From Phycisphaerales bacterium (GTDB taxonomy: Bacteria; Planctomycetota; Phycisphaerae; Tepidisphaerales; Tepidisphaeraceae): a stretch of DNA of 37,211 nt. The notes beneath the pieces are model-generated. The model did not search any database. It saw only the letters and a list, made by a program, of their open reading frames with translations, and had not been told where the DNA came from. Below are positions 42 to 36,606 of this stretch, one piece after another. How positions within the stretch are numbered: the first letter of the stretch is position 1; every line of letters begins with the position of its first letter. A program made the position numbers and the translations under genes. Location of the stretch: the NCBI GenBank assembly GCA_028288775.1, contig JAQGHP010000788.1:1-37211 (forward strand). The letters run 5' to 3'.

Positions 42-150
42 ACAGACGATTAAGATTAGGATTAAGATTAAGATTAGGATAGGAGCGCTTGGAGATGCGC
101 CTCAGAGCGCGATCTTAATCTTAATCCTAATCTTAATCTTAATCGTCTGT
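42..150. repeat. Long palindrome with hexamer (GATTAA/GATTAG) tandem-repeat arms
   Basis: Left arm ACAGACGATTAAGATTAGGATTAAGATTAAGATTAGGAT (42-80); right arm ATCTTAATCTTAATCCTAATCTTAATCTTAATCGTCTGT (112-150). They are reverse complements apart from A/G differences in the hexamers; the loop has a further GCGCT/AGCGC dyad. Confidence 0.9.
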
Positions 151-251: not shown

Positions 252-764
252 ATGCGATTATTGCTTGCGCTGTGTCTGGGGTCGTTGGTGTTCATGACGG
301 GTTGCGCTGCGCAGGAATATGACATCGTCCAGCCGCCGGAGTTTCGGCGGCATATTGGCCGGGATCAGGACGCCATCATTCGGGCGGGGCCGGTGGAGTA
401 TCGGATGCGGGCGGTGGAGGATCGGCTGGTCGTGAGGATCTTTAACCGCAGTAACGGTGCGTTGCAGTTGCTGGGGGACGGGAGTTCGGTCACGGACCCG
501 TCGGGCAATTCCCAGTTGATTTTGAGCGGGACGATTCCGCCGGGCGGATTTAAGAAGGTCGTTCTGCCGCCGACGGTTTATTCGCCGCCGCCGGGTGCGA
601 GCGTCTACCGCGGCCCGGAGTTGGGCGGGGAGCCGGGACTGCACGAGCCGCTGATGGATCAGCCGGGGTTTGGCGCGGGGCGCCCGGCGTGGGAATGGCC
701 GGCGGGCGCGGAGGTGCAAGTGATGCTGACGTTTCAAGTCGATGGCAATCCGCCATTCTCGTAG
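252..764 (+). CDS. Putative lipoprotein, hypothetical
   Basis: MRLLLALCLGSLVFMTGCAAQ: signal peptide plus lipobox (MTGC). Confidence 0.75.
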   Translation: MRLLLALCLGSLVFMTGCAAQEYDIVQPPEFRRHIGRDQDAIIRAGPVEYRMRAVEDRLVVRIFNRSNGALQLLGDGSSVTDPSGNSQLILSGTIPPGGFKKVVLPPTVYSPPPGASVYRGPELGGEPGLHEPLMDQPGFGAGRPAWEWPAGAEVQVMLTFQVDGNPPFS

Positions 765-950
765 CGGTGGACGATTCGCAAGACGCCGACGTGAGATCGC
801 GGCGACACGGTTTAGCTTTGTACGGGTAGCCGCTTGCCGTCGGTCGTCCAGAGGAACGCGAGGTGTTGGCGGGGCTTGGGGGGAACGAGGATGCGAAGGA
901 GTGCGCGTGCCACGGAGATGGGATTGCAAATTGCAAGCGGCAACCCGCCA

Positions 951-1859
951 TCACGTCCCGAGGCCGAACCTCTCTTGCACGCGGCGTTGGACGATGGCGA
1001 AGACCCAACGGTCGGCGAGCATGCCTATGACAACCATCACGATCATCACCGCAACCACCCGGGCGATGTCAGAGAACTCGCGGCCCATCTGCAGCAGGTA
1101 ACCCAGGCCTCTCCACTTTTCGACCATGAAGATCAGCTCCGCGCCCATTAGTGAGCGCCAGGCGAACGAGAATCCCGTCCGCAGGCTCCCGGCCAGGGCG
1201 GGCAGGCTCGCCGGGAGCAGCACGTACCAGTAGAGCTTCCAGCCGCGTGCGCCGAGCATCAGCCCGGCGCGGGGGTAGAGTGGCGGGATCGTCCGCAGGC
1301 CGTCGCGCAGGACGAGCGAGATCGCCGAGAAACTGCCCATGATCAGCACGAACAGGATTCCCTTTTCGTTGATCCCGAAGCAGAGCACCGCCAGCGGAAC
1401 CCAGCAGACACTTGGGAGCGTTTGCAGGCCGAGGAACAGGGGGCCGAGCATCTTGTCCACCGCGTCGAAACGCCACATGAGCAAGCCGATCGTGCCGCCC
1501 AGCGCGACGCTGATCGCGAAGCCGGCGACGAGGCGCACGCCGCTGTACGAGATGGCCTTGACCAGGGGCGTGCCGTACCACGGCTCAACCTGGGGCCGGG
1601 CGGCGTTGGCGGCGCGATCCTCCGGCAGCGGGCGCGGCCAGCCGGTGTGGAGGGGTTCGCCGAAGGCGGTATGCACGCCGACCATTTCCAGCAGGGAATC
1701 GACGACGTGGCTGGGGGCGGGGAAGACCCAGAGCTTCCACCCGATGACCCTATATGCCGTCTCCCATGAGGCCAGAATCAGCACCCAGATCAGCAGGCGA
1801 TTGAGGCTTCCAGTACGTTTCGGCCATCTCGGCGTTGACACGGTTGACCTCGTCCTCAA
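951..1859 (-). CDS. ABC transporter permease (SsuC/TauC/NrtB-like)
   Basis: Multi-TM protein with permease-like motif and context 'GARGWKLYWYVLLPASLPALAGSLRTGFSFAWRSLMGAELI'. Start uncertain: this ORF start overlaps the upstream ATPase gene by 110 nt. Confidence 0.85.
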   Translation of the reverse strand: MRTRSTVSTPRWPKRTGSLNRLLIWVLILASWETAYRVIGWKLWVFPAPSHVVDSLLEMVGVHTAFGEPLHTGWPRPLPEDRAANAARPQVEPWYGTPLVKAISYSGVRLVAGFAISVALGGTIGLLMWRFDAVDKMLGPLFLGLQTLPSVCWVPLAVLCFGINEKGILFVLIMGSFSAISLVLRDGLRTIPPLYPRAGLMLGARGWKLYWYVLLPASLPALAGSLRTGFSFAWRSLMGAELIFMVEKWRGLGYLLQMGREFSDIARVVAVMIVMVVIGMLADRWVFAIVQRRVQERFGLGT

Positions 1860-2706
1860 TCTCCTTGCGGACCAGCTTCACGAGCTGGTTGATGTCGGAG
1901 CTGTCGAAGTTGCGGGGATGGGGGAGCGACACCTGCACCTCCCGGCGGATACGCCCGGGGTGCGCGTGCAGCACGATAATCCGGTCGGCAAGACGAACCG
2001 CCTCGCCAACGGAGTGAGTGACGAAAAGGATCGTCTTGTGCGTCTGGCACCAGAGTTCCTGCAATTGCTCATGAAGCAATGTACGCGTCTGTGCGTCCAA
2101 GGCGGCGAAGGGCTCGTCCATGAGCAACACCGCGGGGTTCATCACCAGTGCCCGGGCGATGGAGACGCGCTGCTTCATGCCGCCGGAAAGCTCGTGGATG
2201 AGTTTGTCGCGCTTGGGGACGAGGTGGACCAGCCGCAATGCGTCCTCGACGCGCCCCTCGCGCTCGGAGCGCGGGACGCCGGCCATCTTCAAGCCGAACT
2301 CGATGTTCTGGGCGGCAGTGAGCCAGGGGAATAGCCCGTGGTCCTGAAAGACCATCGCGCGGTCGGGGCCGGGGCCGTCGGCGGTCTGGCCATCCAGCGT
2401 GACCGTCCCGCTGTCGGGGGTGATCATGCCGGCGGCGACGTTGAGCAGTGTGCTCTTTCCGCACCCGCTTGGGCCGACGACGACTACAAATTCGCCGGGG
2501 GCGCAGGTGATGCTGACGTCGCGCAGGGCTCGGGCGCTGGTGCCGCCGAAGCTTTTGGAGATTCCGCTGAGGACCAGTTGGCCGCGCCCTGTCGTGGTAC
2601 CGGGCGCGGGACGAGCCCACGTGGGGATGGCCACCGGGCGCTCGGCGCGCGGGGCGGGCGGTTCCGGTGCGGACTTGGTGAGGATCGGCGTTGCGGGGGC
2701 TCGCAT
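1750..2706 (-). CDS. ABC transporter ATP-binding protein (SsuB/TauB-like)
   Basis: Walker A GPSGCGKST, signature LSGGMKQR, Walker B VLLMDEPF. Likely start MRAPATPILT at 2706. Confidence 0.93.
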   Translation of the reverse strand: MRAPATPILTKSAPEPPAPRAERPVAIPTWARPAPGTTTGRGQLVLSGISKSFGGTSARALRDVSITCAPGEFVVVVGPSGCGKSTLLNVAAGMITPDSGTVTLDGQTADGPGPDRAMVFQDHGLFPWLTAAQNIEFGLKMAGVPRSEREGRVEDALRLVHLVPKRDKLIHELSGGMKQRVSIARALVMNPAVLLMDEPFAALDAQTRTLLHEQLQELWCQTHKTILFVTHSVGEAVRLADRIIVLHAHPGRIRREVQVSLPHPRNFDSSDINQLVKLVRKEIEDEVNRVNAEMAETYWKPQSPADLGADSGLMGDGI

Positions 2707-2790
2707 GGTTACGTCTCCGGTGCAGTTCGCGGGCAAGAAATTGAATGGATGGTGTAAAGTGTAAGAGTCAAAAATGCGGAGCGGCGGGAG

Positions 2791-2834
2791 GGTGGACCTT
2801 CGGTCCGACCGCTACGCGGTGAGGGCAATCCACC
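2791..2834. repeat. Cruciform-like dyad with two inner hairpins
   Basis: Outer GGTGGA (2791-2796)/TCCACC (2829-2834); inner GGACC-ttc-GGTCC (2794-2806) and ACCGC-tac-GCGGT (2808-2820). Outer and first inner stems overlap by 3 nt, so they may be alternative pairings. Confidence 0.7.
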
Positions 2835-2839
2835 ACATT

Positions 2840-2930
2840 TCATTTTGACTTTTGCATTTTGCACTTCGCATTCAATCCTTCCGGTTCATTCTGCATTCTG
2901 CACTTTGCACTTTGCATTCTTCACTTTCCC
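2840..2930. repeat. Degenerate heptamer repeat tract (TTTTGCA / TTTGCAC / TTCTGCA)
   Basis: Direct reading: ...cattttgacttttgcattttgcacttcgcattc...ttctgcattctgcactttgcactttgcattcttcac. Confidence 0.75.
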
Positions 2931-2934
2931 CTCC

Positions 2935-3987
2935 CTACTGCTGCACCACTTCACGCAAAATACTCGTGTCGATCAAGGTGGCCAGGTTCGCTTGGCGCGG
3001 GGCGAACTCAAGATCGTAGGCCCAGGCGCCCATGGTGCGGATCGTGTCTGGGAGGGGGTCGTCCACGAAACGTACCCGCTTGATCGACGATGCCAGCACG
3101 CCCTTGGGGAGCTTTTTGCCATTGAGCGCGAGGAGCGCCGCCTCGAGCTGCGGGATGTATTTTTGCGGATCGTTATTCAGGCGCACCGTCCAGCGGTGAT
3201 GCACTTGCAGGACCTGACGGAGCACCTCGGGATGATCGCGCAGGAACTCGGGGGTCGTGATGACCAGCGTGAGGATGAAGGCGTGGCCGGGCCACAAGTC
3301 CTTCTCCTCGGCAATCGGGCGTGCGCCCGTCTCGGCGATGAGGCGCGAGCCCCAGGGCTCGGGCGCCCAGGCGGCGTCGATTTCGCCGCGGGACATCATG
3401 GCGGACTGCTCGGCGTTGGCGATGGGCATGACGTTGTGCGAGTCGGTCTGGTGCAGCACGTCCGTCACGTAATGGCGGGCGGCGATGTCCTGCGTGTTGC
3501 CGTGCTGAGGGGTGGCGATGCGTCGGCCGACCAGGTCTTCCATGCGCGTGATGCCCGAGCCTTTGCGGGCGACGATCAAGACGCCATTCTCCGCCGCCCC
3601 CGCGAGCACGCGAATCCCCTGCCCGCGGCTCTTCAAGTGCCCGTTCAGCACCGGGCCGGGGCCGACGTATCCGATGTCCACCTCGCCCGCCAACACCGCC
3701 TCGATGAGCGATGGACCGGCGTTGAACACTTTCGTGCTGAGCTTGGCCGGTTCAATCGCGGATGCGAATTCGCCTGAGGATACACCCAGCACCGCCTGGG
3801 CATGGGTCAGGTTGCCGAAGTATCCGATCCGCACCTCCGCTGGCGCGACGTGGGGCTGATCCTTTCGGCCGCAGCCCAGTCCCGCGGTAAGGAGCGCTAA
3901 CGAGAAAACGACCGCAAGCGTTGGATAGCCAAAAGGTCGGCGTGGATACAGTCGGGGGAAGGAATTTCTACTGCTCACAAAGATCAT
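2935..3987 (-). CDS. ABC transporter substrate-binding lipoprotein (SsuA/NrtA/TauA-like)
   Basis: Signal/lipobox LLTAGLGCGRKD; EVRIGYFGNLTHAQAVLG...; GEVDIGYVGPGPVLNG. Adjacent to matching ATPase and permease genes. Confidence 0.88.
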   Translation of the reverse strand: MIFVSSRNSFPRLYPRRPFGYPTLAVVFSLALLTAGLGCGRKDQPHVAPAEVRIGYFGNLTHAQAVLGVSSGEFASAIEPAKLSTKVFNAGPSLIEAVLAGEVDIGYVGPGPVLNGHLKSRGQGIRVLAGAAENGVLIVARKGSGITRMEDLVGRRIATPQHGNTQDIAARHYVTDVLHQTDSHNVMPIANAEQSAMMSRGEIDAAWAPEPWGSRLIAETGARPIAEEKDLWPGHAFILTLVITTPEFLRDHPEVLRQVLQVHHRWTVRLNNDPQKYIPQLEAALLALNGKKLPKGVLASSIKRVRFVDDPLPDTIRTMGAWAYDLEFAPRQANLATLIDTSILREVVQQ

Positions 3988-4711: not shown

Positions 4712-4776
4712 ACGTGAAACGTGAAACGTGAGAAGACTTTGGTTAGCCGAGTCTTCTCACGTTTCACGTTTCACGT
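4712..4776. repeat. 27-bp perfect hairpin with heptamer ACGTGAA arms downstream of recR
   Basis: ACGTGAAACGTGAAACGTGAGAAGACT (4712-4738) is the exact reverse complement of AGTCTTCTCACGTTTCACGTTTCACGT (4750-4776); 11-nt loop. Confidence 0.93.
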
Positions 4777-11827: not shown

Positions 11828-12202
11828 GCGCCGATGGAATTGGCCGCGGTGCGGAAAACCGCGAAGCCGCGAAAGCGCGAAGACTGACGCGAAGAAACAC
11901 CGAAAGTGTCGCCACAGATGAACACAGATAGACACGGATAGAAAACGCTTCCTGTGACATGGGCGTCCCGCCCATGCTCGATGCGCCCGGAGGCTCCGGG
12001 ATATATTGTTTTCGAATGCTTTGCTAATTCCTACGCAGCAGGCACGGGCGGGACGCCCGTGTCACGTTGGGGCTTGCTCCTCGTCTTATCCGTGTTCATC
12101 TGTGTCCCTCCGGGGCGACCATTCTTCCGCATTTCTTCGCGTCTGTCTTCGCGCCCTTCGCGGCTTCGCGGTTTTCCGCACCGCGGTTCGTTTCCACGGC
12201 GC
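11828..12202. repeat. ~375-bp nested palindrome with three layers of repeat arms
   Basis: Outer arms CCGCGGTGCGGAAAACCGCGAAGCCGCGAA (11844-11873) and its reverse complement (12157-12186), extended by GCGCCG.TGGAA; middle arms CACAGATGAACACAGATAGACACGGATA versus TTATCCGTGTTCATCTGTG; inner arms GTGACATGGGCGTCCCGCCCATGC (11954-11977) versus GCACGGGCGGGACGCCCGTGTCAC (12042-12065). Confidence 0.9.
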
Positions 12203-12203
12203 A

Positions 12204-12292
12204 AAGAAGAGTCGCTGCGCTCGGGCCTTCTCCGACCCAAGTACCGGCTGAACGTCACGGGGTACCGTGACCCATTGGGCAAACTGCCCATG
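12204..12292 (-). repeat. Composite multi-hairpin cassette, copy C (degenerate)
   Basis: Minus strand reads CATGGGCAgttTGCCCAATG-GGTCACGGTACCCCGTGAC-GTTCAGCCGGTACTTGGGTCGGAGAA, matching copies at 31129-31200 and 36540-36605. Confidence 0.75.
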
Positions 12293-12422
12293 CCGCGGCT
12301 TGCGCGGGCGGCGCATGTCACGGCTGCCCGCGCAGCGCCCCGAGTCGAAATCGGGCGCGAGTTTATACTCCAACTGCATTCGGCGATGGGCTATGCTCAC
12401 TCGGGGGCCTGATGACGATCGC

Positions 12423-15317
12423 ATGGACTCGATGCAGACCACACACGCCGCCGACGTCGCCGTCGCTTCCTCCAGGCCAAATCCCCTGCTTCCTCACGCG
12501 GTTGTGGCGGCCGAAGTAATCGTTGCGTTGGGCAGTGACCCGCACTCTGGTCTCGTGGCGGCGCAGATCGAATTGCTCCGCGCCCGCCACGGCGCGAACC
12601 GACTGGCCGAAGCGCCGCCGCCTTCGCGATGGGGCCGGTTTCTGCGGCAGTTCAACGAGCTGATCATTTGGATCCTCATCCTCGCCGCCCTCATTTCCGG
12701 GTTCATGAAAGAGTGGACGGACGCGATCGCCATCGTGGCCATCGTGCTGCTCAACGGCGTGCTCGGGTTCCTTCAGGAAGAAAAAGCGGGCAAGGCACTG
12801 GCCGCCCTGCGAAAAATGTCGTCGCCCCAGGCGAAAGTCGTGCGCGACGGCGTCGTACAGATGCTCCCGGCGGAAGACCTACTGCCCGGCGACCGCGTCG
12901 AGCTCGAGGCCGGCGACTTCATTCCCGCGGATGTGCGCCTCGTCAGCGCATCGGGACTGCGCGTGCAGGAGTCGGCGCTGACCGGGGAATCGGCCCCGGT
13001 GGACAAGGACCCCGCCGCGATGCTCGATGGCGATACGCCGCTGGCCGAGCGCATCACCATGGCCTACATGGGCACGCTCGCCACGTCCGGCAAAGCGACG
13101 GCGGTGGTCGTCGCCACGGGCATGCGAACCGAGTTGGGAAAGATCGCCGGGCTGCTGCAACACGAAGACCTCGAGCCCACGCCGCTGCAAAGGCGGCTGG
13201 CGGAACTGGGCAAAGTGATCGTCGCGGCGTGCCTCGTGATCGTCGCGATCATCTTCGTGTTGCAGGTTCTGCGGGGAAGCCCCATTCACGAAGCATTCCT
13301 CCTTGCCGTCAGCCTCGCCGTCGCGGCGGTTCCCGAGGGTCTGCCCGCGGTGGTCACCATCGCCCTGGCCCTGGGCCTGCAGCGCATGGCGAAGCGCAAC
13401 GCCCTCGTCCGCAAGCTGCCGAGCGTGGAAACGCTGGGGTCGGTCACCGTCATCTGCTCCGACAAAACCGGCACGCTCACGCGCAACGAGATGACCGTCC
13501 GCGAGGTGTACGCGGCGGGCGGGCGGTACGAAGTGAGCGGGATTGGGTATTCGCCGGAGGGGAATTTTCGCAAGACCGCAAACGCGAGCGAGGGAGGGAA
13601 CGTCGCCCGTGGCACGGGCGGCCCGCCCGTGTCGGACGCGCTTCCCCCCGATGAACCGCGCGGCACTCCAGCCGATTCCACGGAACACGGGCGGGCCGCC
13701 CATGCCACGGCAGCGCAGCCGATACTCCAAGAGACCGCTCCCTCGCTCGACCCGGACCTGATCCGGGCGCTCACGATCGGCGCGTGGTGCAATTACGCCT
13801 ACCTCGCCCCGCCCGCGCCCGGCGAAGGAAAAAGCTGGCGTCTCACGGGCGATCCCACCGAAGGCGCGCTGATGGTGGCGGCGCTGAAGGCGGCCATTGT
13901 CACCGCCAACCGCGAGCACGAACTCCTCTACGAACTCCCCTTCGATTCCGACCGCAAGCTCATGACCGTCGTCGCCCGCGGGGCAGGCGGGCACGGAATC
14001 GCCTACACCAAGGGCGCGCCGGAAGTCGTGCTGGCCCGCTGCAATTTCGAGCGGCGGGCCGGCGCGATCGTCCCACTCACCCCGGCGCGACGGAGCGAAA
14101 TCCTCGCCGCCGGCTCGGACATGGCCGCCCGCGCGCTGCGGGTGCTGGGGCTGGCCTACCGCGACATGCCAGGGGTCTGGCCGGAAGATTGTTTGGAGTG
14201 CGAGTTGGTATTCAGCGGGCTGGCGGGACTGTTTGATCCGCCGCGAGAGGAGGCGCGCCCGGCGGTGGACAAGTGCCACCGCGCCGGCATCCGCCCGGTC
14301 ATGATCACCGGCGACCACCCCGCCACCGCGCTCGCCGTCGCGCGGGACCTGGGCATCGCCCGCGAAACCGATTCCGCACTCACCGGCAAGCGCTTGGACG
14401 AACTGGACGACGACGCCCTAGCCCATGTCGTCGAGCAGACGCCCGTCTACGCCCGCGTCACGGCCGAGCACAAGCTGCGCGTCGTGCGGGCGTGGCAGGC
14501 CAAAGGCCACGTCGTCGCGATGACCGGCGACGGGGTCAACGACGCGCCCGCGGTAAAGTCCGCCGATATCGGCATTGCCATGGGCCAGGCGGGCACGGAC
14601 GTCACGCGCGAGGCCGCGGACATGGTGCTGACGGACGACAACTTCGCCTCCATCGTCGCGGCCATCGAAGAGGGCCGCGGGATTTTCGACGACATCCAGA
14701 AGTTCGTTCACTACTTGCTGAGCTGCAACACGGGCGAAGTGTTGGTGATGTTCGTGGGCGCGCTGGCCGGGTGGCCCGCGCCGCTGGTGGCGATCCAGAT
14801 CTTGTGGGTGAACCTGGTGACCGATGCGCTACCGGCGTTGGCGCTGGGGATCGAGCGGCCCGAGCCGGATATCATGGAGCGCCGCCCCCGCCCGCCGCGG
14901 GAAGGGGTCATTACACTCCGTCGCGGCCTGCTCATGCTCTTCCACGGCACGCTCATCGCCGGAGCGACCATCGCGGGCTTCGTGATGGTGCGGCGGAGCA
15001 GCCCCAACTCCATTGACGCAGCCCGGACGGTTGCATTTTGTATTTTGTCCTATTCGCAGCTCTTCTATTCCTTCGCCTGCCGCAGCCAGCGGTACACGCT
15101 GCCGAAGCTGGGGATCATGACGAATCCATACCTGCTGGGCGCGATCGTGATCTCGGGGCTGATACAGCTCGCCGTGTTCCTGCCGTTCCTGCGCGGGGTG
15201 TTCCACGTGACGTGGTTGACGTGGGAATGGCCGCTGGTGCTGCTGTTGGCGCTGACACCGGTGACGATCATTGAGGTGCTGAAGATCCTTCGGGCGGGCA
15301 TATTCCCAAAAACGTGA
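12423..15317 (+). CDS. Cation-transporting P-type ATPase (P2A / Ca2+-ATPase-like)
   Basis: [15 protein letters not shown] phosphorylation motif; [43 protein letters not shown]-terminal [26 protein letters not shown]. Contains an in-frame palindromic repeat at 13609-13708. Confidence 0.96.
13609..13708. repeat. REPIN-like inverted palindrome pair inside the P-type ATPase CDS
   Basis: GTGGCACGGGCGGCCCGCCCGTGT (13609-13632) and ACACGGGCGGGCCGCCCATGCCAC (13685-13708) are reverse complements at 23/24 positions, around a 52-bp core; open in frame ([11 protein letters not shown]...[11 protein letters not shown]). Confidence 0.93.
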
Positions 15318-30960: not shown

Positions 30961-31105
30961 CGCTGCCCAACCCGCCCGCAATTTCGTTGCCGGGGCCAGC
31001 GGCCTCGGCCGACAAGAGTGCGCGGCACATTCGGCGGCTCCTGCTCCCTCCTACGGTATTCCCAGGGATGGATGGGACGGGGTTCGATGCGCACCTCTGC
31101 CATGA

Positions 31106-31307
31106 CATGGGCGGCCCGCCCATGAAGTGGCACGGGCAGCTTGCCCGTGGTCACGGTACTCCGTGACATTCGGCCGGTGCTCTGGCCGAAGAAAGCAAAA
31201 TGTGGCACAGCCGCCCCCGGCTGTGTTCCGCTGCAGGCGGGAGAAGAAAGACACAGCCGAGGGCGGCTGTGCCACACGGGTCCTGTAGGTTTGGCTCCGA
31301 ACCTAGC
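31106..31307 (+). repeat. Composite multi-hairpin cassette, copy A
   Basis: Successive hairpins: CATGGGCGGCCCGCCCATG (31106-31124); CACGGGCA-gct-TGCCCGTG (31131-31149); GTCACGG-tact-CCGTGAC (31150-31167); TTCGGCC...GGCCGAA (31169-31190); TGTGGCACAGCCGCC.../...GGCGGCTGTGCCACA arms (31201-31276); AGGTTtggctccgAACCT. Confidence 0.92.
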
Positions 31308-36393: not shown

Positions 36394-36606
36394 CATGGCA
36401 CGGGCGGCCCGCCCGTGGGCGGCGGCACTCTGCCGCGTTGACCGTTACTCGGGCATGTGTGGCACAGCCGCCCTCGGCTGTGTTTTTATCTTCCGCCTTC
36501 GGCGGAATCACAGCCGGGGGCGGCTGTGCCACATTGCTTTCTTCAATCCGAGTACGGATCGAACGTCACGGAGTAGCGCGACCATGGGCGGGCCGCCCGT
36601 GCCACG
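36394..36606 (-). repeat. Composite multi-hairpin cassette, copy B (triple nested)
   Basis: Outer CATGGCACGGGCGGCCCGCCCGTGG (36394-36418) versus CCATGGGCGGGCCGCCCGTGCCACG (36582-36606); inner TGTGGCACAGCCGCC.../...GGCGGCTGTGCCACA (36458-36533); innermost TTCCGCC-ttc-GGCGGAA. Minus strand matches copy A in order. Confidence 0.93.

Follow-up and report, generated by a model that had tools for sequence, protein, structure and literature searches.

The window analysed here, a stretch of 37,211 nucleotides that forms contig C310 of a 6.29-Mb draft genome from a Phycisphaerales bacterium (G000; 801 contigs, 89% complete), contains a gene for a P-type ATPase whose reading frame runs through two inverted copies of a hairpin repeat. 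How such an element came to lie inside a coding sequence, how old it is and what keeps its two ends alike are the questions that this locus raises. We hold it very probable that the element is a REPIN-like unit that was inserted in frame in an ancestor and is translated as a tolerated loop, that its arms are kept while its core drifts, and that the same has recurred elsewhere.

The element and its host gene

The first-pass annotation had described an inverted palindrome pair in frame within a P-type ATPase, after the DKTGT motif, and this is confirmed. The ORF is open across the entire element, the Pfam families listed in Table 1 support its assignment as an ATPase, and the DKTGT phosphorylation motif occupies residues 399-403, upstream of the element; the gene is codon-typical on either side (0.25 and 0.23). 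The inverted sequences, 26 nt each at 13607-13632 and 13685-13710, are 96% complementary and lie 52 nt apart, the limits of arms and core (54-nt core) in Table 1 being set by the 23-nt REP unit. Folding of the window copy as single-stranded DNA, with DNA parameters, gives a z of -7.5 (the three in-frame elements: -7.5, -10.1 and -9.7).

Table 1. Positions of features in the window, counted from its first nucleotide
Feature	Positions	Strand	Remarks
Perfect inverted repeat (27/27 nt) of another kind	48-138		GATTAAGATTAGG array
Perfect inverted repeat (27/27 nt) of another kind	4712-4776		ACGTGAAACGTGAAACGTGAGAAGACT
Noncoding REPIN, GTGACACGGGCGTC subfamily	11954-12065	.	66-nt core; just upstream of ATPase; absent from the first-pass annotation
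P-type (P2A-like) cation-transporting ATPase ORF	12267-15317	+	host of in-frame element; 1016 aa; Pfam PF00122, PF00689, PF00702, PF13246, PF00690
Probably over-extended start of ATPase ORF; later start codons exist	12267-12482
In-frame REPIN-like element	13608-13709	+	34 codons, ATPase residues 448-481
REP arm 1	13609-13631	+	GTGG head, then CACGGGCG/CGCCCGTG hairpin; same in congener
Core, 54 nt (18 codons)	13632-13685	+	fast-diverging; 28/54 vs congener
REP arm 2, inverted	13686-13708	-	23/24 vs congener
Two adjacent REP units, direct orientation	31102-31149	+
Inverted pair, related REP family (TGTGGCACAGCCGCC...)	31199-31277	.
Noncoding REPIN, subfamily of the ATPase copy	36395-36605	.	165-nt spacing; second inverted pair 36458-36533 nested within

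An AlphaFold model of the protein (24 sequences, mean pLDDT 76) has pLDDT <50 at residues 440-492, between a strand (434-437) and a helix (496-507), so that the encoded segment is predicted to form a disordered loop where the chain enters the nucleotide-binding domain; this fits the earlier suggestion of a low-complexity loop in that domain. Residues 1-72 of the model also have pLDDT <50 and the first start codon of the ORF is therefore probably not the real one, the start being probably over-extended and the first ~72 residues not real protein.

REPINs are inverted REP doublets that occur in high copy and are mostly extragenic (Bertels and Rainey 2011, PMC3116915), and the element resembles them in being an inverted hairpin pair with a short spacer, in belonging to a high-copy, mostly extragenic population, in having ends that are more conserved than the spacer and in forming a predicted ssDNA hairpin. 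It differs from them in that the ATPase copy stands in frame within a conserved gene and has been retained in more than one species, and in that the REP spacers here fall into several classes, near 23, 54-66 and 133-177 nt. The unpaired tag reads GTGG in the window arms and GTGA in other copies, not the GTAG by which the GTAG-tagged REP superfamily is recognised. Since none of the four PF01797 loci of the element's own, incomplete genome has a REP arm in its fetched flanks (see below), 'REPIN-like' is the safe label.

The repeat family and its copies inside other genes

A 21-mer from the arm, allowing <=3 mismatches, finds 285 forward and 285 reverse matches in G000, where the near-palindrome is often scored on both strands, versus 2 + 2 for a reversed-pattern control; within the window there are 10 matches against 0.00 expected, and at <=2 mismatches the arm is matched in 20 of the 61 genomes searched. 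The repeat is thus not confined to the ATPase locus, and the palindrome copies reported near 36394-36418 and 36582-36606 are indeed present and intergenic (36395-36417 and 36583-36605), with no coding frame across the pair in the sampled-locus test.

How the arms are arranged was read from the window together with 60 contigs picked for exact arms (61 sequences, 635,723 bases), which hold 167 arms at <=4 mismatches. Neighbours less than 400 bp apart on these contigs are inverted with heads out ('+-') in 55 of 78 cases and heads in ('-+') in 1, and on 40 contigs of the congener G001, described below, the figures are 25 and 2 of 31. Intragenic copies are the exception: when complete pairs in G000 with a core of 44-74 nt are scored phase-blind, a coding frame spans 3 of 40 (in the ATPase, in SMC and on contig C332) and does not span the other 37, and in the sampled-locus test the counts are 3 of 65 pairs in G000, one of these from a locus that was sampled as an SMC orthologue, and 2 of 29 in G001.

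A profile of the translated elements, built in a single phase and searched in 397 genomes of the class, matched 6 of them at E <=0.001, the in-frame status of each match being judged by frame and codon bias. Besides the ATPase, G000 has in-frame elements in the SMC hinge (C314), a DUF4011/AAA gene (C182), a PD40-propeller protein (C332), a propeller/Ig-like protein (C513), ValRS (C612) and a second AAA-type gene (C624). Among relatives they occur in the ATPase and SMC of G001, in SMC and ValRS of G010 and in PurL of G025, and the other profile matches are noncoding, are broken by stops or are not spanned by a coding frame.

Two loops recur as hosts. REP pairs occupy the SMC hinge loop in G000, G001, G010 and G016, the last with a GTAG head, among 25 aligned SMC sequences; G003, G004, G011 and G026 carry longer, unclassified inserts there and the remaining sequences have little or nothing. 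In the SMC hinge loop of G015 (L390) we also observe a different in-frame inverted repeat of the CCCTCTCCC type, translated LPLPPGEGWGEG...PLTLTLSQRERE. Among the ValRS sequences listed, those of G000 and G016 have REP pairs in loop 1, which precedes ATTRPETML, and that of G002 has no sequence there. The G000 ValRS (L240 about 1-340, C612, - strand) carries, close to the contig edge, another insert in which several repeat families are joined (PSPQPSPPSTRERE, YPGEREGV), and this insert also holds a REP pair in another phase (WHGRPAR...RAGRPCH).

On contigs that were selected by their arms, the pairs spanned by a frame (ATPase, C182, G001 SMC and loop 1 of the C612 ValRS) all read in the RGTGGPPV phase, in four independent genes. 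Of the 74 readings of the 37 noncoding pairs, 30 are open in that first phase, 41 in another and 0 in the third. A coding-phase preference is suggested; a strict rule was rejected, as the profile searches cover one phase only and the pair in the C612 ValRS at the contig edge reads in another. Intragenic cores in G000 are mostly 54 nt (SMC 69) and noncoding ones 59-66, with one of 54 on C686, which is suggestive of a special 54-nt coding core, but the cores in G010 ValRS and G025 PurL are 48 and 60 nt and we do not adopt it. The pair on C686 (L343 1501-1602), the sole noncoding pair with a 54-nt core among the 37, is interrupted by in-frame stops and may once have been intragenic.

Translated intragenic REP dimers are already known. 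Di Nocera et al. (2013, PMC3733652) reported REPs wholly within ORFs of several species, often as dimers coding for 20-30 residues, in uvrA, recB, tRNA synthetases and other genes, suggested that they may occupy flexible loops, and found them most in Opitutus terrae, the verrucomicrobium with the highest number of GTAG ones, and in R. conorii. The ATPase element is of this known kind in a new lineage, so that the first-pass statement that no equivalent had been described in this kind of genome was too strong. The head is different here, GTGG or GTGA, with GTAG in the SMC copy of G016, and neither a divergence of arm versus core between orthologues nor a transposase inside a host frame is described in those parts of PMC3733652 that are drawn on here. 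An older precedent for in-frame insertion, also pointed to by the first-pass annotation, is that of the Rickettsia palindromic elements, which are about 150 bp long and fall into several families, each with a conserved peptide (reviewed in PMC10969869); the likeness to the present element lies in their description as mobile palindromes that stand in frame within genes not related to one another.

Age of the insertion and the contrast between arms and core

The 34-residue segment is absent from all 22 aligned ATPase orthologues, which are 42-61% identical to the window protein (24 were tried, L100 and L083 being left out for stop codons), and from 16 of 18 ATPase rows from relatives in the class, some of them more distant ATPases, the remaining two being G000 and G001. 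Orthologues without the repeat are thus also without the peptide. A long tblastn span at L095 that looked like an insertion turned out to be two neighbouring ATPases. The copy number, the excess in the window and the orthologues lacking the segment rule out both a chance palindrome and a conserved loop, and the earlier description of a REPIN-like, lineage-specific, high-copy repeat is borne out by the 285/285 matches, the heads-out pairs and these 22 orthologues.

The congener G001 is a MAG, Phycisphaerales bacterium RYN_428 (contig JAQGHH010000620.1; a fragmented draft, 60% complete), and its ATPase carries the element at the identical place and in the identical frame. The two proteins are 87% identical, with codon-aligned flanks at 82% and third positions at 63.5%. 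Because the cores are of equal length and homologous, a single ancestral insertion before the split of G000 and G001 is the natural reading, and the element would then be no new event in G000 but older than that split.

Between these genomes arms and core have diverged very differently. The ATPase arms are identical at 24/24 and 23/24 positions (47/48 together) and the core, compared without gaps, at 28/54, versus 13.8 in shuffles, of which 0 of 5000 scored as high. In the SMC element the arms agree at 24/24 and 21/24 positions, the lower figure reflecting a decaying arm 2 in the G000 copy, and the core at 43/69 (shuffled 18.3), with flanks at 85.7%. When only arm codons for the same residue are considered, 29 of 30 are identical over the ATPase and SMC elements, where codon-matched flanks predict 18.8 (P about 1e-5). 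Windows of eight identical codons do arise by chance in these two genes (21/844 and 20/638), so that constraint is not proved by any one arm and the argument depends on all four taken jointly. G000 and G001 share too few orthologous intergenic REPINs for arm and core to be compared there on a matched basis.

What holds the arms might be selection on the host, for a function of the loop or of an mRNA hairpin in pump regulation, translational pausing or mRNA stability. Synonymous-site conservation in the arms and the strong hairpin predicted with DNA parameters would both be in keeping with this, but the REP pair sits in unrelated proteins and is missing from most orthologues, and one SMC arm is decaying; we regard such selection as a possible but not a likely cause. 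Quasipalindrome template switching is a mechanism by which one arm can be corrected against the other, and it would slow their divergence with neither selection nor other copies. The near-perfect match of the arms within the element (26 nt, 96%) and the G001 copy, with 0 mismatches to the consensus in both arms, are consistent with it, but it would make the arms equal to each other and not to a genome-wide consensus or to the arms of another species, and we think it unlikely.

The two species might instead have acquired their elements independently, the loop being a hot spot and the arms alike as recent copies of the same subfamily. From one genus to another, different REP variants are seen in the SMC hinge loop and in ValRS loop 1, so insertion at a single site does recur, and one intergenic site common to G000 and G001 holds different REPINs (L189/L280). 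In both ATPase and SMC, however, the cores are equal in length and clearly homologous, well above their shuffled values, which makes separate acquisition very improbable for these copies. That the locus is a pseudogene or mis-assembly, open by luck, has the draft state of the genome in its favour, but the frame is open and codon-typical on both sides and intact in two separate genomes at 87% protein identity, and this scarcely credible reading is largely refuted by the congener.

Transposases and the proposed origin

REP hairpins are substrates of Y1/HUH transposases (PMC6006769, PMC3116915, PMC8049555). In G000, 0 of 4 PF01797 loci have a REP arm of the GGC, GTC or TTTCCAA type at <=5 mismatches in the 3.1-3.3 kb fetched (about 1.2-1.5 kb per side), and the best-scoring of these loci has an internal stop. 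The connection comes from relatives. ValRS loop 1 of G026 (L430 2158-2928) contains a 257-residue in-frame insert consisting, in order, of four REP units, a Y1 transposase domain with the MPNHIH motif and two inverted REP units. The domain matches Pfam Y1_Tnp (PF01797) with 24.6 bits against a cut-off of 23, and NCBIfam NF047646 (REP_Tyr_transpos) with E 5e-18 and 65 bits, below that model's own cut-off of 80 bits. The REPs that flank this RAYT-like domain are of the GTC subfamily, and as judged from sequence the unit would tie the arm family of the ATPase element to a Y1/HUH transposase. The ValRS of G012 (L435) has a 222-residue insert in another loop, at residues 732-953 of the frame 553-3624, with a Y1 transposase domain (26.2 bits) that has on each side an inverted dimer belonging to a different repeat family (PLAHARGS / ASPERERGV).

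The open frames that join ValRS and transposase in G026 and G012 run for 1308 and 1617 codons with no stop. Among the matches listed for these two genomes, ValRS matches outside those contigs are 26-34% identical, as we infer would be expected for IleRS and LeuRS. Quentin et al. (2018, PMC6006769) described REPtrons as a Y1 transposase gene flanked by REP structures, placed class 3 TnpA_Y1 mainly in Planctomycetes, and discarded a few unexpectedly long proteins as gene fusions or annotation errors. The transposases of REPtrons are stand-alone genes there, whereas in G026 and G012 the unit lies within the ValRS frame. In the open PMC literature, subscription papers being outside its scope, we found no paper describing an essential gene whose frame holds a REP-transposase unit, and none of a contrast between arm and core at fixed sites or of reuse of the same loops.

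Taken as an old in-frame insertion, the ATPase element would be a non-autonomous unit that most likely owes its spread to a REP-associated Y1 (HUH) transposase working on ssDNA, and we infer that a RAYT mobilised this copy. It would have entered the gene before the two sampled species split, in a length-variable loop that lies past the phosphorylation motif and ahead of the main part of the nucleotide-binding domain. Because its length is a multiple of three and there is no stop in the host frame, it would be translated as a 34-residue disordered loop, in a pump that probably still works. The arms may be held by homogenisation from the many other copies or by a hairpin constraint at the level of DNA or RNA. 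By the same process other housekeeping genes would have received in-frame REP pairs, the same SMC and ValRS loops more than once, and relatives would have gained whole repeat-transposase-repeat units; an insertion into a gene would persist only where it keeps the frame, brings no stop and falls in a surface loop.

REPINs are usually studied as extragenic, and a lineage in which they repeatedly lie in frame within conserved proteins offers a natural screen for permissive loops (the N domain of P-ATPases, the SMC hinge, ValRS). With arm and core comparable at fixed positions, the cause of REP conservation becomes open to test. The nested transposases are also relevant to the question of what keeps RAYTs intact. 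Park et al. (2021, PMC8049555) describe RAYTs as single-copy, vertically inherited, domesticated transposases whose function is unknown. In G026 and G012 transposase and ValRS form one uninterrupted frame, which is the sole match at ValRS level listed for each genome, so that a frameshift or nonsense mutation in the transposase would also break ValRS. We put forward, tentatively and as a rather doubtful proposal, that the REP/RAYT system of these Phycisphaerae lies partly inside the frames of essential genes and that ValRS, held hostage, keeps the transposase intact. If true, this would give a simple answer to the long persistence of such transposases, and the short REPINs that are read as part of the ATPase, SMC and ValRS would make up the system's non-autonomous counterpart, kept at lengths and in frames that the proteins tolerate.
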